Below are positions 18,745-31,960 of a stretch of DNA of 64,000 nt, one piece after another. The notes under the pieces were generated by a model. The model searched no databases. It saw only the letters and a list, made by a program, of their open reading frames with translations, and was not told the origin of the DNA. A program made the translations under genes and the position numbers. How positions within the stretch are numbered: the first letter of the stretch is position 1; each line of letters begins with the position of its first letter. This DNA comes from Candidatus Methanomethylophilus sp. 1R26 (GTDB taxonomy: Archaea; Thermoplasmatota; Thermoplasmata; Methanomassiliicoccales; Methanomethylophilaceae): the NCBI RefSeq assembly GCF_001481295.1, contig NZ_LOPS01000042.1, positions 1-64,000 of the forward strand, written 5' to 3'.

Positions 18745-19935
18745 TCAGGACCGCTCCTCTTCCAGAAGCCAATCCAAGAGGTTCGAATGGTGCAGCCCGT
18801 CCGGAAGGTCGGTGACGAACGAGTCCATGGACAGCACCGTCTTCGGATAGCTGTCCCTGATCAGGCGGAAGGGAGCGACTTCGCGTTCATACGTATCGTC
18901 TGTCATAATGGACATCGTCACCTGGATGTACTGGACCTCGCGGTTCCTGCGTGCAGTGAAATCCACTTCCCTGTCTCCATATTTGCCGACGGCCACTTCG
19001 TAACCCCTTCTCAGAAGTTCCAGATATACGATGTTCTCGATCTGCCTGCTTATGTCTTCCCTTGATGAGATTCCAAGGACTGCGTTCCTCATGCCGGTAT
19101 CGGAGACATAGTATTTCTCCAAAGTATCGAGGAGTCTTTTCCCGCGTATATCGTAACGTTCCGCTTTGTAGATCAGAAAGGCCTTCTGCAGTGCATCGAG
19201 ATAATTCCTTACTTTCTCCGGGTCCTTCTTTATGGTGACAGCGATGTTGTTGGCGCTGGTTATGTTGCCTACGTTGGAATAAAGGAATCTTACTGTGTCT
19301 GTCAGGGTCCCCACATCCCCGCCTTTGCAGTTCCTTATCACATCCTTCAGCAGGATGGTGTTGAACAGTCCGATCAGATGATCGTGCTCGAACATCTCGT
19401 CAGCATCTGGGTTTATAACAGGCAGCGAACCCATGCGGATGTACTGGTAAAACCTTTTATCCCTGTCTCCCGGATGCAGTTCCATAAATTCTTTGAATGA
19501 TAATGGAAGAATGCGCAATTCAGCATAGCGTCCTGAAATATACGTTGACAGATCGTTCGAGAGAAGATAAGCGTTTGATCCGGTGATGTAGATATCGGCG
19601 TCGTAATCGGTCTGAAGAGAGTTGACCGCACGTTCCCAATGCTTCACCGTCTGAACCTCGTCGAGAAAGACGTACGTCCTCTTACCGTTGTACTTCTTAT
19701 CTATCTCTTCCAGAAGTTTCAGATAATCTGTCACATGGGCAAGGGTTTTCGATTCGAAGTTCAGGTATAATATCTGACTGTCCGGAACTCCGGATTCCCT
19801 AAGGAGGCTCATATATTGCTTCATCAGAACGGTCTTCCCGCTGCGCCTCATACCGGTTATGATCTTCACAGTGTCCGGACGATCTCTGCCTGCAAGGAGC
19901 CTGTCCAGATAGATCTTCCTGATTACTTCGGCCAT
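18745..19935 (-). CDS. AAA ATPase with DUF4143 C-terminal domain (first of three)
   Basis: About 396 residues. Walker A is TGMRRSGKTVLMKQ (about 28-40) and Walker B YVFLDEVQ; the sensor region reads DIYITGSNAYLLS. The C-terminal half fits DUF4143, ending in a PD-(D/E)xK-like core (EVAVGKYGDREVDFTARR then EVQYIQVT). This widespread family is often found in mobile or defence regions; its role is unsettled. An ATG five codons upstream (19950) is also possible. A near-perfect inverted repeat lies just upstream (19970-20019). Confidence 0.85.
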   Translation of the reverse strand: MAEVIRKIYLDRLLAGRDRPDTVKIITGMRRSGKTVLMKQYMSLLRESGVPDSQILYLNFESKTLAHVTDYLKLLEEIDKKYNGKRTYVFLDEVQTVKHWERAVNSLQTDYDADIYITGSNAYLLSNDLSTYISGRYAELRILPLSFKEFMELHPGDRDKRFYQYIRMGSLPVINPDADEMFEHDHLIGLFNTILLKDVIRNCKGGDVGTLTDTVRFLYSNVGNITSANNIAVTIKKDPEKVRNYLDALQKAFLIYKAERYDIRGKRLLDTLEKYYVSDTGMRNAVLGISSREDISRQIENIVYLELLRRGYEVAVGKYGDREVDFTARRNREVQYIQVTMSIMTDDTYEREVAPFRLIRDSYPKTVLSMDSFVTDLPDGLHHSNLLDWLLEEERS

Positions 19936-19969
19936 AGATATGAATCGCATTATAGGATTTAAGTTTATA

Positions 19970-20019
19970 GGAAATTTCCGTTAAAATATAATGTGAATTG
20001 AAGTTTAACGGAATTTTCC
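19970..20019. promoter_or_regulatory. Inverted repeat between ATPase gene and AraC remnant
   Basis: GGAAATTTCCGTTAAA (19970-19985) and TTTAACGGAATTTTCC (20004-20019) are inverted copies differing at one pair. They straddle AT-rich DNA that would hold the ATPase promoter. This is the shape of an operator, or of a mobile-element end. Confidence 0.5.
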
Positions 20020-20630
20020 GTGAAAATTATGCCTAGAATATTCGGTTCTACCGTCTGTCCGCTCGGATGGCCGAGGCAATTCGATGCGTTCCGGGATTTC
20101 ATGGGAGCAAAGCCCATCGCAGACCAGACGGATTCGATCGCGTTCAGGAGGGAAGATATGAAAACCCCCTTCATCTCCCACAACAGGCCCATGCTCGATT
20201 ACCTGGAACCGGAGATGGAATCGCGCCTGTCCGGGATATCGGCGCAGGGAGGGTTCTCCAGGGACATGTACAAGGCCGTCATGGAGATCCTCCCTTCCGG
20301 AAGATGCACGATAGACGATGCTGCATCGGAGATGGGCGTCGGAAAACGCACCGTGCAGAGGAGGCTGTCTGAGGAAGGCACCTCCTTCAGCGCGGTCCTC
20401 GCCTCCGTGCGCAGGAACCTCGCGGAGTACTACATCGGGAAGATGGGGATGGATACAGGCGAGACCGCGTTCATCCTCGGGTACAGGGAGACGAACTCCT
20501 TCCTGCGCGCATTCCGGCAGTGGACCGGCATGACGGTGACGGAGTTCAGGAATCGCCCGAAGGTCCGATCGAAAGACCTGTTCATCCGCCGGTGCGTCGC
20601 ACTCTTCCGAGAGGACCGGGAACTTCATTC
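20020..20630 (+). pseudogene. Remnant of AraC-family transcription regulator
   Basis: The frame from the GTG at 20020 lacks the first 150 or so residues of a normal AraC protein. It retains the end of the ligand domain (DSIAFRREDMKTPFISHNRP) and an intact-looking double HTH of the HTH_18 type (IDDAASEMGVGKRTVQRRLS; GETAFILGYRETNSFLRAFR). After FRNRPKVRS, where AraC proteins end, the frame continues without a stop into the antisense of the next gene, so the 3' end is also cut. AraC regulators are bacterial in character, so this is probably a decayed import. Confidence 0.7.
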
Positions 20631-21224
20631 CTCTCCACCGAAGGATAATTTGGGCAGGGACTTCTGTATCCTGACGGTCTCGACACTGACCGTGACAATC
20701 GAGCAGATGAGGTCGAATATGTACCTGCTCCTGGCATACTTGTTGGGGTCGTTCACGATCCCTGTGTCCTTATCCTCGGTCACATGGTACATCTCTGCAA
20801 TCTCTCCCAATGCGGAACGGCCGTTGACGACATACTCGAACGCCTCTTCCGGGATGTTCCCTATTGTGATGAGATCGCTGTAGATCATGGTGCGGAGTTC
20901 CGGATCGATCTTCATATTCTTCGTTCCGACCTTGAAAAGCGAGTCCCTGCCCATGAAATCCTTCACCTGGGTACCGCCGTTGATCGCCAGGTCCTTCCAC
21001 GGCGGTACGGACTCATAGTTCAGATGGAGTTCGGCTAATTTCCTTCCTGCTTTCGCGAAAGCGAAGAAATCTTCAAGACTGTCGACGAACTCGATATGAC
21101 GATTTAGTCTGGTGAAAAACCATCGAGATCTATTCCCGAAATATGGCGTAAATGCCGAAAATCGACATAACAGCGTGCGTATGAAATAACACATTCTCGA
21201 TATCTCATTGTTGATGGTGGGCAT
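20625..21224 (-). pseudogene. C-terminal fragment of a helicase-type (type ISP-like) restriction enzyme
   Basis: About 170 residues (roughly 20625-21110) resemble the extreme C-terminus of large DEAD/DEAH restriction helicases: EDFFAFAKAGRKLAELHLNY, IYSDLITIGNIPEEAFEYVV, RYIFDLICSIVTVSVETVRI and SLPKLSF. Those proteins exceed 900 residues; the helicase and nuclease parts are absent here. The first 40 codons (MPTINNEISRM...) do not match the family and may be junction sequence. It abuts the AraC remnant at its 3' end and the type I locus at its 5' end, so this is a rearrangement scar. Confidence 0.65.
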
Positions 21225-21226
21225 TG

Positions 21227-22746
21227 ATGGCTAAAACTTCCAAAAAGAAAGAACTGAGCATGGAAGAAGCCCTCTGGGATGCGGCTGATGAGATGAGAGG
21301 ATCTGTCGAATACCCAGTGTACAAGCAGGTCGTCCTCGGATTGGTATTTCTGAAATTCGTGAGCGATAGGTTCTACAAACAGCGTGCAAAGCTGGAGGCC
21401 GATGAATCTACCAAAGCTTTCATAGAAGAGAAGTTCGCCTACGGCAAAGACAATGTCTTCTATCTCCAAAGGAGGCAAGATGGGACTATCTCACCGATGA
21501 AGCCAAGCAGTCGGATATCAAGGTCAAAATCGACAAAGCTATGGAACTCATCGAGAAAGACAATCCTACCCTGCGTGGAGCCCTGCCCACGAACTTCTAT
21601 GCCACAGTGGACCTTGACAACACAAAGATTGCCTCGCTCATCGATACCATGAACCGTCTCGATCTTTCCAAAGACGATGAGGAAGACGTCATCGGCAGAG
21701 TCTATGAGTACTTCCTGTCCAAATTCTCATCGAAGGAAGGAAAGGGTGAGTTCTATACTCCAAAGCCAATTGTCAAAATCATCACAGAGATGATCCAACC
21801 GCTAAAAGGCCGTGTCTTCGACCCGTGCTGCGGTTCAGGTGGAATGTTCGTCCAATCAATTAAAATGGTAGATGCCCATAAGGGAAACAGGAAAGACATC
21901 TCGATTTACGGCCAGGAATACACACTTTCCACGCTAAAATTGGCCAAAATGAATCTTGCTATCCGTGGAATATCTGCCGATTTCGGCCCTCATAATGATG
22001 ATTCGCTCAGAAGAGATCTCCACAAAGACCTCCGCGCCGATTTTGTCATGGCCAATCCTCCATTCAACCAAGACAAGTGGGGAGCAGATGAACTCCAGAA
22101 CGACCCCAGATGGGTGTACGGCGTCCCCAGAGGCAACGCCAATTATGCATGGATTCAGCATTTCTTATACCATCTGAACGATGACGGTGTTGCTGGGTTC
22201 GTCCTTGCCAACGGTTCCCTTACATCGAACACCAACGGGGACGGGGAGATCAGGAAGAACCTTGTAGACAGAATGGTCGTCGACTGCATTGTGGCGCTTC
22301 CTGAGAAGCTATTCTACTCCACCGGCATCCCCGTATGCCTCTGGTTCTGCTCCAAAAAGAAAGCCAGAAGAACAGATTCCACCAAGGACAAGATTCTGTT
22401 CATCGACTGCAGGAGGATGGGTCACCTGTACGACCGGACCCACAAGACCATAGATGATGATGAGATCCAGAAGATAGCAGGCACATACCACAAATGGCTG
22501 GCTGGAAAAGGTTACGAGGACGAGCAGGGGTTCTGCAGATCTGTCCCTATATCTGAAGTCGCCGAATCAGGATACATGCTCACTCCCGGAAGATACGTGG
22601 GTCTTCCTCCCGAGGAGGAAGATGACGAACCGTACGAAGAGAAGATGAAGCGTCTCACCGGTGAATTGAAGGGTCTCTTGGAAGAATCTCATCGCCTGGA
22701 AGATGAAATCAGAGCAAATCTCAAGGCCCTGGGCTTCGAAATCTGA
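21227..22746 (+). CDS. hsdM: Type I restriction-modification methyltransferase subunit (one frameshift)
   Basis: N6-adenine methyltransferase that, with HsdS, protects host DNA. About 506 residues. The N-terminal helical domain (YPVYKQVVLGLVFLKFVSDR) is followed by the SAM site FDPCCGSGGMFVQSI and catalytic NPPF (VMANPPFNQDKWG). Near 21470 one base is missing: EARWDYLTDEAKQSDIK resumes only after a shift. The ATG at 21227 is preferred over a TTG one codon earlier. It is separated from hsdR by only ten bases. Codon use and GC are lower than in flanking core genes, consistent with import. Confidence 0.9.
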
Positions 22747-22756
22747 GGAATCTGCT

Positions 22757-25700
22757 ATGCATGAGATGGGTGAATGTACTAAATTTGGAGAGGAGGACCT
22801 GGAGCATGCGATAATCGAGGACTTCAAAGCCAGAGGATATGAGCATGTCAAAGGGGAAACCATCCAAAGGGACCGCCGCGAAGTGATTCTTTTCAATGAT
22901 CTGCAAACCTATCTCAGGCACAGATACCCAGACATCACGGACGGTGAAATCCGTGTGGCCGCAACAATGTTCAGAGTGAGCGACCGCGGAGACTATGTCA
23001 GCAACCGCGAGACATTGCAGAGGATCCGCGAGGGATACAGCATCAAAAGAGAGGACATGAAGACCACTCTGTGGATTAATCTCTTGGATTTCCAGCACCC
23101 AGAGAACAATATCTTCAAGATAGTCAACCAATTGGAGATCCAGGGACCTAAGAACGACAGACGGCCGGACGCTATCGTATATGTCAACGGTATCCCGCTG
23201 GTGGTTTTGGAATTCAAATCGGCAATCCGCGAGGATGCTACGATTTACAGCGCATATCAGCAACTGAACATCCGTTATATCCGCGATATCCCGGAACTGT
23301 TCATCTACAATGCTTTCACAGTTATCAGTGACGGCGTGAATTCTAAGGCAGGAACCGTATTCACAGATTATCCAGACTACTATTCATGGAATAGATCAGA
23401 GGCTAAGGATCCTTCAAGCGACGGCGTCAACTCCCTGCGCACTCTTATTGATGGGATGTTCAGAAAAGAAAGGCTGCTCGCCATCATCCGCGATTTCATC
23501 TACTTCCCAGATGACAGTGGAAGCAATGAGAAGATATTGTGCAGATACCCCCAGTTCTTCGCTGCCACCGAACTCCTGGACAATATTGGACCTCATATGA
23601 AACCTAAAGGAGACGGGAAAGGCGGGACATACTTTGGAACGACAGGATGCGGGAAGAGTTTCACAATGCTGTTCCTGACACGGCTGCTCATGAGGTCCAA
23701 AGAAATGAGGAACCCCACCATCATCCTCATAACCGATAGGGAGGACCTGGACAACCAGCTCAGTAAGCAGTTCATCAGATCCAGGAGGTTCCTAGGCGAT
23801 GAGAACGTCCTCTCCATGGATACCGGCACGAATCTAAGAAACAAGCTCAAAGATGTAGCATCCGGCGGAGTGTACCTGTCAACCATTCAGAAATTTAATG
23901 AAGAGGGCTCTATGCTCTCAGACAGGTCAAACATAATCATAATATCGGACGAGGCCCACCGTTCCCAGCTCAACATGGAGCAGGCAGACAAGATAATCGA
24001 CGGCAAACGCAAGCATACCGTCGGATTCGCCAGGATCCTCCACGATTCCTTTCCTAACGCCACATACGTTGGATTCAGCGGCACCCCGATCGATGAGACA
24101 ATGGAGGTCTTCGGCGACATCGTCGACGAATATACCATGGCCGAGTCCGAGAAGGACAGGATAACATCCAAAATCGTTTACGAAGGAAGAGCCGCGAAGG
24201 TTGCTCTGGCCGAGGACCAGATGGCGGCCATAGAGGAATACTACAAGGATTCCCTCGACCGCGGAGCGAACGAATACCAGGTAGAGAAGAGCAAGAAGGA
24301 CCTGTCGAAGCTCGACATCATCATCGGTAACGAGGGCAGGTTGGAGAAAGTATCCGACGACTTCATCGCCCATTACGAGGCCAGGGTCGCAGAGGGCGCG
24401 ACCGTCGCCGGCAAAGCGATGTTCGTCTGCGCCAACCGCCGCATCGCTTACGACTTCTATCAGATGCTGAAGCGCAAGCGCCCTGAATGGTTCGAGGTCA
24501 GGGAAGCCGACAGGCCCCCCAAGGAAGGAGAAGAAAAGGCTGAACCCATAGAGATGGTGAAACTCGTCGCTACCCGCGGGAGCAATGACCCAGCAGACCT
24601 GTTCGAACTCTGCGGAGATTCTGCATACCGTTCCAATCTCCAGACACAGTTCAAGAAGATCGAATCCAATTTCAAGATAGCTATCGTAGTGGACATGTGG
24701 CTCACTGGATTCGACGTCCCGTTCCTGGACGCGATGTACCTTGATAAACCGATCCAGAAGCATTCCCTTATCCAAGCCATATCCAGAGTCAACAGGATCT
24801 ACGAAGGCAAGGAATACGGCCTCATCGTGGACTACCTGGGAATCAAGAAAGAGCTCGATCTCGCGCTGAACAAATATGCCAGGGGTGGCATCGGCAGAGG
24901 AACCTACCCTGAGTCTGGCGAATTTGCCAAGATCGTCAAGGAGACCCTGAGCGCTCTGGACGGAAGGTTCCACGGCTTCGATTCGAGCGGTTACTACTCA
25001 GACGATTCCTCCAAGCAGATAGATTGCCTCGGCCGCGCCATGGAGTTCGTCCAGCAGGACAAGGAATTCGAGCACTGGTTCATGAGCACAGTCCGTAAAC
25101 TGAAGACCGCCTACAACAACTGTGTTTATTCAGATGATATCACTGCTGATGAGCGCAGCAGGATCTATTTCTACTGCGGCGTCAGGTCCATGATAGCCAA
25201 GATCATCTCGGGTAATGCTCCGGATACGGCACAGATGAACCGCAAGGTCAGGGAAATGCTGGAAAAGGCCATCCAGTCCGATGAGGTATCTCAGATCGGC
25301 ATTATCATAGACAATATCGAGACCGACAGGATAGACCTGCTCTCTGACGAGTATCTGGAGAAACTGGAATCGATCCCCGGATCCAATACTAAGTTCAAGC
25401 TTCTGGAGAGACTGACCCGCATGGCCATCGGCAATCTCCGGAAGATCAACAAGCTCAAGGCCGATTCGTTCTCGGAAAGATTCAACAAAATAGTTCAGAA
25501 GTACAACGACCGCCACATGGGCGCTGAGGAGCTGAGACAGATCATCAATTCTATGACAGATGATGTCGTCGAAATGCTGAACTCGGAACTCGTCTCCCTT
25601 ATCAGAAGCATAGATAAAGAAGAAAAGGAAGCAGATGCCCTCGGGCTCACACGGCAAGAGAAGGCATTCTATGACATCCTGGCACATACTATCGAGATCT

Positions 25701-25933
25701 ACCAGTTCGAGTTTGACACCGCAAAACTGCCGGATATGGCACGCGATCTGAAAACCTGCACCGACGAGGTCTGCTCGGTGCTCGACTGGTCCTCCAAGGA
25801 GGATGTGAAAGACGGCCTCAGAATGAAGATCGCGATGGTTATGCAAAAGCACGGATTCCCGCCGATATACCTCAACGGAGTCTATGATGAGGTCTTCAAA
25901 CAGATGGAAAACTACAAGAGGTACAGCGAATGA
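22757..25933 (+). CDS. hsdR: Type I restriction endonuclease subunit
   Basis: DNA-translocating nuclease of about 1,058 residues. Order: PD-(D/E)xK nuclease (RPDAIVYVNGIPLVVLEFKS, about 135-155), then two RecA domains with Walker A TTGCGKSFTMLFL, ITDREDLDNQL, DEAH box ISDEAHRSQ, SGTPI, and motif VI AISRVNRIYEGK; a helical C-terminus binds the MTase core. The start at 22757 (MHEMGEC) has GAGGAA just upstream. The stop overlaps the hsdS start (ATGA), so translation is coupled. Confidence 0.93.
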   Translation: MHEMGECTKFGEEDLEHAIIEDFKARGYEHVKGETIQRDRREVILFNDLQTYLRHRYPDITDGEIRVAATMFRVSDRGDYVSNRETLQRIREGYSIKREDMKTTLWINLLDFQHPENNIFKIVNQLEIQGPKNDRRPDAIVYVNGIPLVVLEFKSAIREDATIYSAYQQLNIRYIRDIPELFIYNAFTVISDGVNSKAGTVFTDYPDYYSWNRSEAKDPSSDGVNSLRTLIDGMFRKERLLAIIRDFIYFPDDSGSNEKILCRYPQFFAATELLDNIGPHMKPKGDGKGGTYFGTTGCGKSFTMLFLTRLLMRSKEMRNPTIILITDREDLDNQLSKQFIRSRRFLGDENVLSMDTGTNLRNKLKDVASGGVYLSTIQKFNEEGSMLSDRSNIIIISDEAHRSQLNMEQADKIIDGKRKHTVGFARILHDSFPNATYVGFSGTPIDETMEVFGDIVDEYTMAESEKDRITSKIVYEGRAAKVALAEDQMAAIEEYYKDSLDRGANEYQVEKSKKDLSKLDIIIGNEGRLEKVSDDFIAHYEARVAEGATVAGKAMFVCANRRIAYDFYQMLKRKRPEWFEVREADRPPKEGEEKAEPIEMVKLVATRGSNDPADLFELCGDSAYRSNLQTQFKKIESNFKIAIVVDMWLTGFDVPFLDAMYLDKPIQKHSLIQAISRVNRIYEGKEYGLIVDYLGIKKELDLALNKYARGGIGRGTYPESGEFAKIVKETLSALDGRFHGFDSSGYYSDDSSKQIDCLGRAMEFVQQDKEFEHWFMSTVRKLKTAYNNCVYSDDITADERSRIYFYCGVRSMIAKIISGNAPDTAQMNRKVREMLEKAIQSDEVSQIGIIIDNIETDRIDLLSDEYLEKLESIPGSNTKFKLLERLTRMAIGNLRKINKLKADSFSERFNKIVQKYNDRHMGAEELRQIINSMTDDVVEMLNSELVSLIRSIDKEEKEADALGLTRQEKAFYDILAHTIEIYQFEFDTAKLPDMARDLKTCTDEVCSVLDWSSKEDVKDGLRMKIAMVMQKHGFPPIYLNGVYDEVFKQMENYKRYSE

Positions 25934-26529
25934 CCGGTTTCGAAAGAGTCAGATTAGGAGACCTTGTAACCTGGGCAAAAGGATGCAGTATTCCCCGCGA
26001 TGAAACATCTGCAGATAGACATATCCCTTATCTTCACTACGGAGACCTCTACAAGAAATACGATCGCTGTTTGAATTTGCCGGAAGTGATTGACGAGATA
26101 ATCAAGATCGATGAACTTGATTCGGTCAAAGAATCTCAGATGCTTCATGACGGAGACATCGTATTCACTCTTACATCAGAAACAGTTGATGATCTGGGAC
26201 ACTGTACCCTCATCATCAATCCAAAAGACACGCCGTTCGTATCCGGTATGGAAACGACCGTCCTTCATATCAAAGAACCCCGCAGAGCACTGCCGGCATT
26301 CCTCAATTATATGTTCCAGAATGAAAAATTCCATAGTATATTGAGGCAGTTCGTAACCGGAATGAAAGTCTATAGGGTTCACCCTAACGATCTAATGAAG
26401 ATTGAGATAGACCTCCCCTCTTTGGAATATCAATCCAAAGTTGTCACTATTCTAGACTCATTTTCCAATTCTATATCTAATCTCACTGAAATAAATGATA
26501 ATTTAGGGGGCATTTGTTTTGCCGCCTAA
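25930..26529 (+). CDS. hsdS: Half-size HsdS specificity protein (module A)
   Basis: A 199-residue specificity subunit with a single target-recognition domain, residues 1-165, followed by the start of the central conserved helix (SNSISNLTEINDNL). HsdS proteins normally have two such domains, so this is a half gene. It ends soon after the 15-bp repeat at 26491-26505 in a run of five G; removing one G would fuse it in frame to the next hsdS. It overlaps the hsdR stop. It may act as a dimer of halves or be a spare module for recombination. Confidence 0.75.
   Translation: MTGFERVRLGDLVTWAKGCSIPRDETSADRHIPYLHYGDLYKKYDRCLNLPEVIDEIIKIDELDSVKESQMLHDGDIVFTLTSETVDDLGHCTLIINPKDTPFVSGMETTVLHIKEPRRALPAFLNYMFQNEKFHSILRQFVTGMKVYRVHPNDLMKIEIDLPSLEYQSKVVTILDSFSNSISNLTEINDNLGGICFAA
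26491..26505 (+). repeat. hsdS recombination-site candidate, copy 1
   Basis: ATAAATGATAATTTA, encoding Ile-Asn-Asp-Asn-Leu in the central helix of hsdS module A. Identical copies occur at 27011-27025 (direct) and 29404-29418 (inverted). Confidence 0.7.
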
Positions 26530-27673
26530 CTCATCTATCTTGCTTGGTGATTTGTGTTTCTTTGTCCATGAAACATGTGATTGTTCCTTTGTTGATCCGG
26601 AGACTTACGTATCTACTGATTCGATGCTCCCTGATAAAGCAGGCATTACTCAGGCCGAATCAATTCCCTTAACTGGTACCGTTAGCAAATATCAACCAAA
26701 AGATGTCCTTCTATCAAACATAAGGCCATATTTCAAGAAAATATGGCAATCTACTAGAAATGGGACCTGTTCCAACGATGTATTGGTTATTAGAGCTAAA
26801 GATGAGCGCATTTCTGATTATTTGTTTGCATTATTGTCTGAAGATCGGTTCTTTGATCATGTGATGCTCGGTTCTAAAGGGACCAAAATGCCTCGTGGGG
26901 ATAAGGAACAGATTCTCACGTACACTGTATGCGATCTACCCTTTTCGGAAATGTTAGCTATTGGTGGTTGGTTTTCACTAATCAATCAAAAAATCTCCTG
27001 TAATCAGGCAATAAATGATAATTTAATGAAGAGTGCAAGGGCAGCCTTCAGTGAAATGATGGATACATCAGAACTGTCAAGTGGTGTGTTATCAGATGTT
27101 GTATCAATCACCATGGGCCAGTCCCCTCCTGGGGAAAGTCTATCAGAAGATGATGCGGGCACACTCTTCTACCAAGGTCGTGCTGAGTTTGGACCAGTAT
27201 TCCCAACACCCAGATTATACACAAGCGATCCAAGACGTATGGCCAAACAAGGTTCCATACTGATGAGTGTCAGAGCACCTGTTGGTGACATCAATGTGGC
27301 ATTAGAGAGATGCTGTATTGGTAGAGGTCTGGCTGCTATTGAATCAAATAATGGAATGCAAGGTTTTGTTCATTATCTGATGGATTATCTAAAGCCGAAA
27401 CTGGATGTATTCAATGGCGATGGCACGGTGTTCGGATCAATCAATAAAGAATCGGTCAACGGTTTGGAAATATCACTACCTGAACAGAAATCTATTGAAC
27501 AATTCAATAAGTATGCAGAGAAAGTAGATGCGGAGATAAGATCCAATCACTTGGAGATGTTGAAATTATCTGAAATTCGTGATTATCTTTTGCCCAAATT
27601 GATGTCCGGTGAGATCGACGTTTCTACCTTGAAGATGCCAACTAAATATTCATTTAACTCAGCAAATAAGTGA
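26519..27673 (+). CDS. hsdS: Type I specificity subunit, two recognition domains (modules B and C)
   Basis: A 384-residue DNA-specificity subunit that directs HsdM/HsdR. Module B (about residues 5-155) ends in the central helix with INDNLMKSARAAFSEMM; module C (about 170-340) starts SSGVLSDVVSITMGQSPPGE and ends with LRD-type helix EIRDYLLPKLMSGEIDVSTL. The only in-frame start is TTG at 26519 with GGGGG upstream acting as a possible ribosome site. GC is well below the window average. Its C module lies between the direct/inverted copies of the 15-bp site and can be exchanged with the silent copy at 28.7-29.4 kb. Confidence 0.85.
   Translation: MPPNSSILLGDLCFFVHETCDCSFVDPETYVSTDSMLPDKAGITQAESIPLTGTVSKYQPKDVLLSNIRPYFKKIWQSTRNGTCSNDVLVIRAKDERISDYLFALLSEDRFFDHVMLGSKGTKMPRGDKEQILTYTVCDLPFSEMLAIGGWFSLINQKISCNQAINDNLMKSARAAFSEMMDTSELSSGVLSDVVSITMGQSPPGESLSEDDAGTLFYQGRAEFGPVFPTPRLYTSDPRRMAKQGSILMSVRAPVGDINVALERCCIGRGLAAIESNNGMQGFVHYLMDYLKPKLDVFNGDGTVFGSINKESVNGLEISLPEQKSIEQFNKYAEKVDAEIRSNHLEMLKLSEIRDYLLPKLMSGEIDVSTLKMPTKYSFNSANK
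27011..27025 (+). repeat. hsdS recombination-site candidate, copy 2
   Basis: Second exact ATAAATGATAATTTA at the Ile-Asn-Asp-Asn-Leu position, between modules B and C of the complete hsdS. Direct with copy 1, inverted with copy 3. Confidence 0.75.
27636..27655 (+). repeat. 20-bp repeat at the hsdS 3' end, left copy
   Basis: TGCCAACTAAATATTCATTT, coding for the last residues of HsdS (PTKYSF). Its exact inverted copy is at 28766-28785; the pair flanks the recombinase gene. Confidence 0.8.
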
Positions 27674-27781
27674 TTTGATACTTAACAAAATAGGAATCAA
27701 ACATGATCATGAACGGAAAAAGTGGCCAGTTCTGGCTGTCCCGTCGGTAAACATTCATTGGAGAAGACAACTCATTAGCGC

Positions 27782-28756
27782 ATGACTCTGAAGGAGGATC
27801 TCAGGAATAGTCTGACAGGAAAAATCGACGAACTCAGCATATCCATCGTTATGGTGGAATTATCGCTGCTGTTGGATAAATCTGAGAACAGGAAAGAACA
27901 TTACCCCGGAGACGGAAATATCAAACTTCTTCAAGCCTTCTTATCTTCAAAGCGCTTGGAAGGATGTTCAGAAAAAACTCTGAACTACTACCAATCCACC
28001 ATTGGCATGATGATTTCAGAATTGGAAATATCCCTGACTGAGATGAGCACCGATGACATCCGGAACTACCTGTCGGATTATCAATCGCGGCGCGGATCCA
28101 GCAAAGTTACCATCGACAACATCCGCCGCATATTCTCCAGCTTCTTCTCATGGTTGGAAGATGAAGAATATATCCTGAAAAGCCCCGTCAGACGCATCCA
28201 CAAGGTTAAATTCGGTCGCACTGTCAAAGACACATTCTCCGATGAGGACATCGAAAGACTGAGAGACGGCTGCGAGAACACAAGGAATCTTGCCATCATC
28301 GATACGCTGATATCGACCGGAATGAGGGTAGGCGAGTTGGTACGGCTCAATCGGTCGGACATCGATTTCAATGAAAGGGAAAGCGTCGTATTCGGAAAAG
28401 GCGGGAGTGAGCGCAAGGTTTACTTCGACGCCAGAACAAAACTTCATCTGAAAGATTATCTAGATCGGCGCTCAGATGATAACCCGGCACTTTTCGTCAC
28501 ATTGCATAATCCAGTCAAGAGGATCAGCATAAACGGTGTGGAAACCATGCTGAAATCACTGGAAAAAATTACCGGAGTAGAAGATATTCACCCACATAAG
28601 TTCAGGCGTACGATGGCGACCCGCGCGATTGATAAAGGTATGCCTATAGAACAAGTTCAGAAACTCTTAGGCCATGTGAGGATTGATACAACTCTCCATT
28701 ACGCTATGGTTAATCAGGAAAATGTGAAGAATGCACACAAGAAGTACGTAGCCTAA
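27782..28756 (+). CDS. Tyrosine recombinase between inverted hsdS genes
   Basis: Site-specific recombinase of 324 residues. The N-terminal SAM-like core-binding domain (EKTLNYYQSTIGMMISEL) is followed by the catalytic domain with Arg in STGMRVGELVRL, Lys in FGKGGSERKV, HPHKFRRTMAT (His-x-x-Arg), LLGHVRIDTT (His) and nucleophile Tyr in TLHYAMVN. All catalytic residues are present. Its position inside a 20-bp inverted repeat and between inverted hsdS copies strongly suggests that it inverts the specificity modules rather than integrating an element. The stop is TAA. Confidence 0.9.
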   Translation: MTLKEDLRNSLTGKIDELSISIVMVELSLLLDKSENRKEHYPGDGNIKLLQAFLSSKRLEGCSEKTLNYYQSTIGMMISELEISLTEMSTDDIRNYLSDYQSRRGSSKVTIDNIRRIFSSFFSWLEDEEYILKSPVRRIHKVKFGRTVKDTFSDEDIERLRDGCENTRNLAIIDTLISTGMRVGELVRLNRSDIDFNERESVVFGKGGSERKVYFDARTKLHLKDYLDRRSDDNPALFVTLHNPVKRISINGVETMLKSLEKITGVEDIHPHKFRRTMATRAIDKGMPIEQVQKLLGHVRIDTTLHYAMVNQENVKNAHKKYVA

Positions 28757-28765
28757 TAGCCTACC

Positions 28766-28785
28766 AAATGAATATTTAGTTGGCA
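28766..28785 (-). repeat. 20-bp repeat at the silent hsdS 3' end, right copy
   Basis: Exact inverted copy of 27636-27655. The pair lies 1.1 kb apart around the recombinase gene. Confidence 0.8.
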
Positions 28786-29403
28786 ATGTCAGAGTCGAAA
28801 CATCAATTTCTCCAGACAATAATTTGGGTATAAGTTGATCCCTAATTGTCTTAAGAGCATCACATTGAGTTGCATTATTACGATATAGTTCGAATAAACA
28901 TGCAATTTTTGAGGAAAACTCTATTACCACATCCTCTGGCGGGATAATTATTGGGACGGTCTTCATATTTGATTGACTAATTTTGGGCTGTACTGCTCCA
29001 GTGATTATCGAATTCACGCTAAGACGTGGCATAGAAGATAAAGAGAATCTACGGTGTATCCTTTTTCCCCTGTTAAGATGTGTGCATGGTTGTTGACCCA
29101 GAATTTTCCAAATACATATTGGAGTATGGGGCCCCCAAACTCATTAACCACAGTCCCATCTTCACCCAAAAGAAGATACACTCCGTCAAAAAGATAGCTA
29201 TCAACATAATCTGTGACTGATGCAGCACCATAGTATGGATATATCTTGGCACGTTCAGAACGTTCTTTAGCAGATAGTGGCACTCTCTTGGAATCATGCA
29301 CTTCAATTATATCTCCCAATTGCCCCAAGGTCCAACCATCAGGCAGATCATCACCACAAACATATGGGAAATAACAATCGTACAGCAAATTTGCGATTTC
29401 GAG

Positions 29404-29418
29404 TAAATTATCATTTAT
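29404..29418 (-). repeat. hsdS recombination-site candidate, copy 3 (inverted)
   Basis: ATAAATGATAATTTA on the minus strand, nine codons into the silent hsdS, at the same Ile-Asn-Asp-Asn-Leu position as copies 1 and 2. Confidence 0.75.
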
Positions 29419-29446
29419 CCGTATATGCAGGAATTTCGATTTCACT

Positions 29447-29540
29447 AATTATTTAGGTATTATTTGGCTATTAATACCTAAATTAAATAAATACAATGTC
29501 TTTTTTTCAGTATTTATCATTAAATATTACCTAAATAATT
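29447..29540. promoter_or_regulatory. Operator-like repeats upstream of the Fic gene
   Basis: AATTATTTAGGTA (29447-29459) and TACCTAAATAATT (29528-29540) are perfect inverted copies. A third half-site, AATACCTAAATT, lies near 29473-29484. All are in a 100-base AT-rich gap immediately before the Fic start, where the promoter must be. The Fic protein ends in a winged-helix-like domain that could bind them. Confidence 0.6.
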
Positions 29541-30678: not shown

Positions 30679-31960
30679 TCACGGACCCAGCACTGTCGGC
30701 GGGATGACATAAACGCCGTCGTCTCTGCGATATGCTGCATCGGTCATCCCGCAGATGACGCACAGGAACTCCGGCGGCCTCCCGTTCTCCTGATCGCGTA
30801 TCTTCGTGTCCATCTTCAGAAGGGATCTCGCACCTTCGTCTATCTCATGTGCCCCCGTCTTCATCTCGAAGGCACCCCACTTACCGTCCGGAAATTCCGC
30901 AACGGCATCTATCTCGTTCCCGTCCCCGTCACGGTAGTGCATCACTTTGCCGTCGTACATCATGGCGTATGCCTTCAGTTCGTGAACGCACAGGGCCTCG
31001 AACAGATATCCGAACGAATTAAGGTCATTGATGTACGATTCCGTGTTCATCCCCATAGCGGCGGCGGTGAGGGAGGGGTCGCAAGGTGTCTTTTAGGAGT
31101 TTTCCCGACCCTTACCGAAGACCTCATATTCGGGTTGAAAGCAGGTTGGAAATCGGTGAAATGAAGGCTTTCCAAAACAGAAAGGTATTCATTCAGCGTA
31201 TTATCGGATATCTGCGCATCATCCGGATTCTCCGTCATATCTTTCTTGAGAGCCTTCTTGGATGCAGTAGTGCTTTCGTTGCGTGCCAAAGAGCGGATGA
31301 GACGGAACATCTTGGTCGGATCGCGGTTCACCCCGTCGAAGGATATGTCATTGTTCACCAAGGTTTCTATGTAACCTCTGGCAACCTCCAACGATGCATC
31401 CGCATTCATATCCATGACCCCGGGCCATCCCCCGTGGACGGTGTAATCGACCAGGTCCTTCAGTTCGGCCTCCTGTGTCGCGAAAGAGATCTCGGGACGG
31501 CCAAACAGCCCCCTCAGGGATACCCTGCCGTCCGAGATCCCTCTTTCGAACAGCGTCATGGTCATCATGCGGAGTTCCTTTATGCGACCCGTACCCGAAT
31601 GGACGAATCCTTTCCTGTTGGGCGTTGCGGAGCCGGTAAGCACGTACATCCCCTTCTTCCCGGCATCATCTATCCTATACCTTACAGCATCCCAGATACA
31701 GGGAACGTCCTGCCATTCGTCGATCAGCTGAGGGAGACTGTCCTTGAATATCAGCGTAGGGTCCGTCATCGCCAGTCTGCGGTTCTGATAGTTCCCCTTC
31801 GGGTCCGCGATGAGCGCGGCGCTGTTGCAGCAATTGTATGCGGCCCACGTCTTTCCGCACCATTAGGTCCGGTGATGTTCACAGCACCGAAGAGGGATAG
31901 GGATCTCTTCAGCTCATCATCTATCAGTCTGGGTACGTATCCGTCCCTTCTCAAGGTCAC
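30679..31960 (-). pseudogene. AAA/DUF4143 ATPase, two frame breaks (second of three)
   Basis: About 427 codons in three frame segments. From a GTG at 31960: TLRRDGYVPRLIDDELKRSL, GPNG then (after a shift in the Walker A, near 31862) GKTWAAYNCCNSAALIADPK; Walker B-like LPQLIDEWQDVP; YVLTGSATP; a second shift near 31085 precedes ESYINDLNSFGYLFEALCVH and the nuclease-like core NEIDAVAEFPDGKWGAFEMK. It is the same family as its neighbours but distant in sequence. The breaks may be sequencing errors, so the gene may be functional. Upstream it has 23-bp tandem repeats. Confidence 0.7.

Follow-up and report, generated by a model that had tools for sequence, protein, structure and literature searches.

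A methanogenic archaeon with a type I restriction-modification locus whose specificity gene is very likely shuffled by a recombinase

Does a type I restriction-modification locus of Candidatus Methanomethylophilus sp. 1R26 change its DNA specificity through a recombinase encoded within the locus itself? The stretch of DNA analyzed here, 64,000 nucleotides of contig NZ_LOPS01000042.1 (hereafter the window), holds type I genes, hsdS modules on both strands, short repeats, and a tyrosine recombinase gene. We consider it very likely that together they form a recombinase-shuffled specificity locus in a methanogenic archaeon, and that the DNA sequence methylated probably switches from cell to cell.

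Gene content, host, and integrity of the locus

The hsdM gene (21224-22746, plus strand) encodes the N6 adenine methylase subunit (Pfam N6_Mtase, E 7e-102) and is frameshifted near position 21470 in the assembly; its orthologue in another genus of the family (genome G049) is intact with 519 aa, and in the alignment the window copy is one base short. On the same strand, hsdR (22757-25933, 1058 aa; HSDR_N, SWI2_SNF2, and T1RH-like_C; TIGR00348, E 2e-140) is followed by module A (25930-26529), an N-terminal recognition domain (TRD; Methylase_S, E 9.5e-10) that overlaps the hsdR stop codon through an ATGA. As assembled, module A amounts to half an HsdS, with a stop right after the first of the repeats described below (EINDNLGGICFAA*). 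A complete hsdS of 384 aa (26519-27673, plus strand; Methylase_S) comprises modules B, up to 27010, and C, from 27011 onward, and resembles the solved S subunits 5ybb and 3okg with E values of about 5e-34. A silent C-terminal TRD, module D (28767-29445, minus strand), was delimited from its reading frames and from a Methylase_S match on its first part (E 2.5e-6), and is frameshifted near 29040 in the assembly. The hsdM, hsdR, and hsdS genes stand in an operon-like order with overlaps, and we predict from this gene order that they are expressed as an operon. The GC content is 39-41% in the hsdS modules vs about 60% in the flanks.

Between the two hsdS genes, where the earlier note had placed an intact recombinase, lies a gene for a tyrosine recombinase of 324 aa, the putative invertase of the locus (27782-28756, plus strand; Phage_integrase, E 2.8e-33). 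It is indeed intact, with the full catalytic set R182, K206, H272, R275, H298, and Y307. Its closest solved structure is XerA (4a8e) and its score exceeds the curated cut-off of the archaeal XerA profile NF040815 (recomb_XerA_Arch), but its closest sequence relatives are bacterial hsdS-linked enzymes. The relatives are mostly 53-67% identical and nearly all from Bacillota, with a few from other bacterial phyla; five were found on viral contigs.

The source assembly (1.72 Mb, 50 contigs, 83% complete) appears to be a MAG. Its archaeal 16S gene and its mcrA identify the host as a methanogenic archaeon, presumably of a Methanomassiliicoccales-type lineage. A complete conspecific genome (G002) lacks the stretch from 19191 to 29446, its flanks being joined at 19190/29447; since both flanks are 97% identical to that genome, the locus does not come from a contaminating contig. 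The junction in G002 cuts an ATPase gene short, so loss of the locus there seems likelier than a clean insertion in the window. The window also has a long AT-rich inverted repeat (29447-29540) upstream of a Fic-family gene; homology to two related genomes starts at the edge of this repeat, which suggests a breakpoint hotspot or an operator.

The absence of the whole locus from G002, along with the frameshifts in hsdM and module D, neither of which the earlier note had reported, would fit a decayed copy that was formerly invertible but no longer works in this strain, its methylase and its silent module both being broken. We regard such decay as unlikely. The recombinase, hsdR, module A, and hsdS B-C are intact and the recombination sites proposed below are exact, and the frameshifts may themselves be sequencing errors. 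Indel errors in the assembly are suspected because a neighboring ATPase-like gene (30679-31960, minus strand) is broken here by one-base deletions and is intact (433 aa) in G002; the frameshifts in hsdM and module D may be assembly errors of the same kind.

Two classes of candidate crossover site

The 15-mer ATAAATGATAATTTA, which can be written TAAA-TGATAA-TTTA, occurs in three exact copies in the 64-kb window: at 26491-26505 (plus strand, site I-1) in module A, at 27011-27025 (plus strand, site I-2) in the complete hsdS, and inverted at 29404-29418 (minus strand, site I-3) in the silent hsdS. A search that tolerated one mismatch revealed no further copy in the window, and 100 shuffles gave no chance copy with up to one mismatch permitted. 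All three copies encode Ile-Asn-Asp-Asn-Leu (INDNL) in the hsdS frame. The earlier note had described this arrangement, including the common INDNL codons, and it proved correct. Given INDNL and the codon usage of neighboring genes, the probability of the same five codons recurring by chance in two further copies is ~6e-6; the TTA among them accounts for 7% of local Leu codons. Sites I-1 and I-2 are direct repeats; recombination between them would remove module B, and the gene would then be locked as A-C.

The 3' ends of the two hsdS genes share an inverted repeat of 82 nt with 77% identity (27574-27655 and 28766-28847), whose final 20 bp, TGCCAACTAAATATTCATTT, are exact, as the earlier note had reported. 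The 20-bp repeat overlaps TAAATATTCATTTA, in which the arms of the 15-mer enclose another spacer, TATTCA (at 27643, and at 28765 with one arm mismatch). Two class II sites can thus be delimited: site II-1 (27636-27656, plus strand), with TAAA-TATTCA-TTTA at 27643-27656 overlapping the exact repeat at 27636-27655, and site II-2 (28765-28785, minus strand), an inverted copy of the 20-bp repeat that reads TAAA-TATTCA-TTTG. One arm base is mismatched in three of four class II copies, a point against the proposed reading. Even so, the most plausible view of the 20-bp repeat is that it represents another class of site, with a spacer of its own, that would flip the recombinase gene. Coding homology was considered for the 3' repeat and rejected as a full account, with 18 bp identical in four copies from two genera whose surroundings have diverged.

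In total, the window contains three sites with the spacer TGATAA and two with TATTCA, and the same-spacer sites flank TRD cassettes beside the recombinase gene. Full matches to TAAA-N6-TTTA number four in 64 kb, every one of them inside the locus (0.11 expected), and when the window is divided into 5-kb tiles, sites with a repeated spacer are confined to the tile of the locus.

The 82-bp repeat could also serve general homologous recombination or gene conversion, with no need for the recombinase, as do longer repeats in pneumococcus that recombine without CreX/PsrA (PMC6620402). We find this highly improbable: the long repeat is only 77% identical and exact over just 20 bp, the class I sites of 15 bp are too short, and recombination at the pneumococcal 15-bp repeat strictly requires the recombinase (PMC4948785, PMC6620402).

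Relatives of the locus in bacteria and archaea

We compared 79 bacterial loci encoding relatives of the recombinase (L002-L080), from gut Bacillota, Mycoplasmatales, and others. TAAA-N6-TTTA sites with the same spacer were present at least twice in 61 of the 79 loci, at least three times in 51, and at least four times in 40, vs none of 237 simulated loci with two such sites; often there are four copies around the recombinase gene. Each locus uses one spacer: CAATAA, CGATAA, TGATAA, TGAAAA, CAAGAA, CGAGAA, TAACAA, or TAATAA. A spacer that is fixed within a locus and free between loci is what strand exchange would demand of a crossover region. We did not find a paper stating this site rule in the open-licence literature searched, and the only match to the site sequences themselves was an irrelevant porpoise marker paper.

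Homologous cassettes shared by the loci of different species end at the sites in 34 alignments, counting those in which each end is no more than 35 bp from a site, and 18 of the 34 are inverted; e.g., the segment shared by L030 and L047 is inverted and 96% identical. Judged from these alignments, the site-bounded inverted cassettes are natural products of recombination at TAAA-N6-TTTA. Among bacterial loci with two slots (L002-L077), 31 of 36 have one C-terminal cassette forward and one reversed. Such loci thus hold one complete and one half hsdS, and in-place flips seem disfavored. With bacterial same-spacer sites and cassettes ending at them, these comparative data indicate that the 15-bp repeat of the window is almost certainly a crossover site.

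That the repeats are merely conserved coding sequence (the INDNL and PTKYSF motifs) and the recombinase an integrase of some unrelated mobile element draws on the position of the 15-mer at a conserved HsdS protein motif and on the frequency of XerA-like integrases in archaea (PMC8371274), but is largely refuted and, to us, scarcely credible, since the codons, including TTA, are fixed well past protein constraint (ATA..TTA in 65 of 67 INxNL motifs of relatives, vs background shares of 33% and 27%), and since cassettes end at the sites and bacterial 3' sites retain arms and spacer although they lie outside the hsdS coding frame.

A flipped state of the putative crossover system was sought in the same species, for which G002 is the only other genome, and it lacks the locus. 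Across the 390 genomes of the phylum, the locus was found in three, namely the source genome (G000), G049, and G096. The G049 locus is orthologous and has three TGATAA and two TATTCA sites, as in the window. Its class I sites are ordered +,-,- vs +,+,- in the window, a change that would be the product of an inversion between the outer class I sites; the recombinase gene has the same orientation in both loci, so a class II inversion would be needed too. In G049, the counterpart of module B occupies the silent side, and one fused HsdS of 441 aa is encoded by the expressed gene. No DNA match was found within the TRDs of the two loci; the comparison is therefore one of layouts rather than of two states of one allele.

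The third archaeal locus, in G096, has the spacers TCCAGA and TCGAAA, three copies each. In this locus (L104, 9900-12700), the recombinase is 61% identical, a half hsdS faces a full hsdS, and TCCAGA and TCGAAA lie at KSRFIEMFG codons. The archaeal recombinases form long branches, placed with weak support among those of bacteria. That G096 and the G000/G049 pair acquired the locus separately was considered and set aside, a single archaeal clade not being rejected (p-AU 0.51). The recombinase family is found chiefly in bacteria and seldom in the phylum of the window, and the locus was likely acquired horizontally.

Proposed cassette exchange and comparison with known systems

We propose that the recombinase of the locus acts on TAAA-N6-TTTA, and only between sites with equal 6-bp spacers. 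Crossover would take place through the three class I sites (TGATAA) at the INDNL codons, where the N- and C-terminal recognition domains meet, and through the two class II sites (TATTCA) at the 3' ends of hsdS, which bracket the recombinase gene. Inversion between class I sites would select the expressed halves, whereas inversion between class II sites would flip the recombinase gene; since modules C and D are each bounded by one class I and one class II site, a pair of inversions, one per class, would swap C for D and return the recombinase gene to its original orientation. Placed between one site of each class, a C-terminal cassette should be exchangeable but not able to flip in place. The earlier note had proposed the exchange of modules C and D by inversion; this part is supported, but as only one of the outcomes, since either A or B may also be the N-terminal half.

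Module B, lying between two class I sites, carries its own Shine-Dalgarno-like sequence and TTG start. The sequence after site I-1, GGGGGCATTTGTTTTGCCGCC, contains a Shine-Dalgarno-like GGGGG run and a TTG (26506-26521, plus strand; TTG at 26519-26521) that overlap the end of A, and the sequence after the outer site of G049, GGAGGTGTCACTTTTGCCTCC, contains GGAGGTG..TTG with the same spacing. In both archaeal loci, this start is in another frame than the INDNL that reads into it. Start signals of this kind before an N-terminal TRD were seen in no other of the loci examined. When B is behind A, it would be made as a separate HsdS; when B is on the silent side, A would be fused to the C-terminal half. 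The stop of module A falls just past the TTG of B (overlap 26519-26529), so B-C can plausibly be translated by coupling to A in the assembled state.

These start signals, missed by the earlier note, predict four HsdS proteins: A-C, A-D, B-C (the assembled state, accompanied by the half-subunit A), and B-D. In simulated inversions, A-C (407 aa), A-D, and B-D were all in frame at the joint, and A-D and B-D were truncated at 321 and 298 aa, respectively, by the frameshift in D. The complete proposal, i.e. recombinase-mediated cassette exchange with heterospecific sites, no in-place flip to a dead state, a self-starting cassette, and four specificities that make up a phase-variable archaeal methylome, is one to which we give even chances. 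Were the locus to switch, cells of this methanogen lineage would differ epigenetically from one another and their phage-restriction specificities would shift, a behavior known from bacterial pathogens and commensals.

Reports on archaea bear on the novelty of such a system. The earlier note had called it an archaeal example; the host is indeed a methanogenic archaeon, but the idea has a precedent in Li et al. (2016), who mention that archaeal homologues exist, with none named (PMC4948785). Invertible DNA was not found in a survey of six archaeal datasets (PMC5903667), and inversion is unmentioned in a survey of archaeal restriction-modification (PMC10609329). A REBASE survey set a minimum repeat length of 20 bp and itself notes that it would overlook anything shorter (PMC7394358); the site rule, with fixed arms and a locus-specific spacer, would allow genomes to be searched for loci with sites below that cut-off.

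Archaeal XerA/dif, which resolves chromosome dimers, shares with the locus a XerA-type recombinase profile and a 6-nt spacer, also the layout of dif (PMC8371274). It differs in that the window recombinase is nearest to bacterial hsdS-linked enzymes and has several sites per locus.

At the pneumococcal SpnIII/cod locus (Spn556II), a 15-bp repeat depends on the recombinase PsrA/CreX. The earlier note had rightly named its hsdS domain swapping as the known counterpart (PMC4948785, PMC7096588, PMC6620402). As at SpnIII/cod, type I hsdR, hsdM, and hsdS genes are accompanied by extra hsdS modules in the opposite orientation, with a tyrosine recombinase gene between them; the pneumococcal locus also has 15-bp inverted repeats in hsdS, and its recombinase gene is itself found in either orientation (PMC4948785, PMC7096588, PMC6620402). 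Structural features expected of an SpnIII/cod-like locus are present in the window, i.e. hsdM, hsdR, and hsdS in operon-like order, a silent opposite-strand hsdS module with a distinct TRD, inverted repeats that keep the frame, and a recombinase with a complete active site. In contrast, the CreX core is the 10-bp ATTATGGGAA (PMC6620402), which has no match in the window; the pneumococcal host is bacterial; and other exchanges there proceed via longer within-gene repeats (85 and about 300 bp) rather than a self-starting cassette.

The bacterial hsdS-linked loci share the TAAA-N6-TTTA form, a constant spacer per locus, and the INxNL position. Most of them have four one-spacer sites in the order +,-,+,-, so that single cassettes could flip in place, whereas the archaeal loci use two spacer classes and are set apart by a self-starting N-terminal cassette. 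The principle of cassette shuffling is known from bacteria, and the locus described here is an archaeal version with its own layout.
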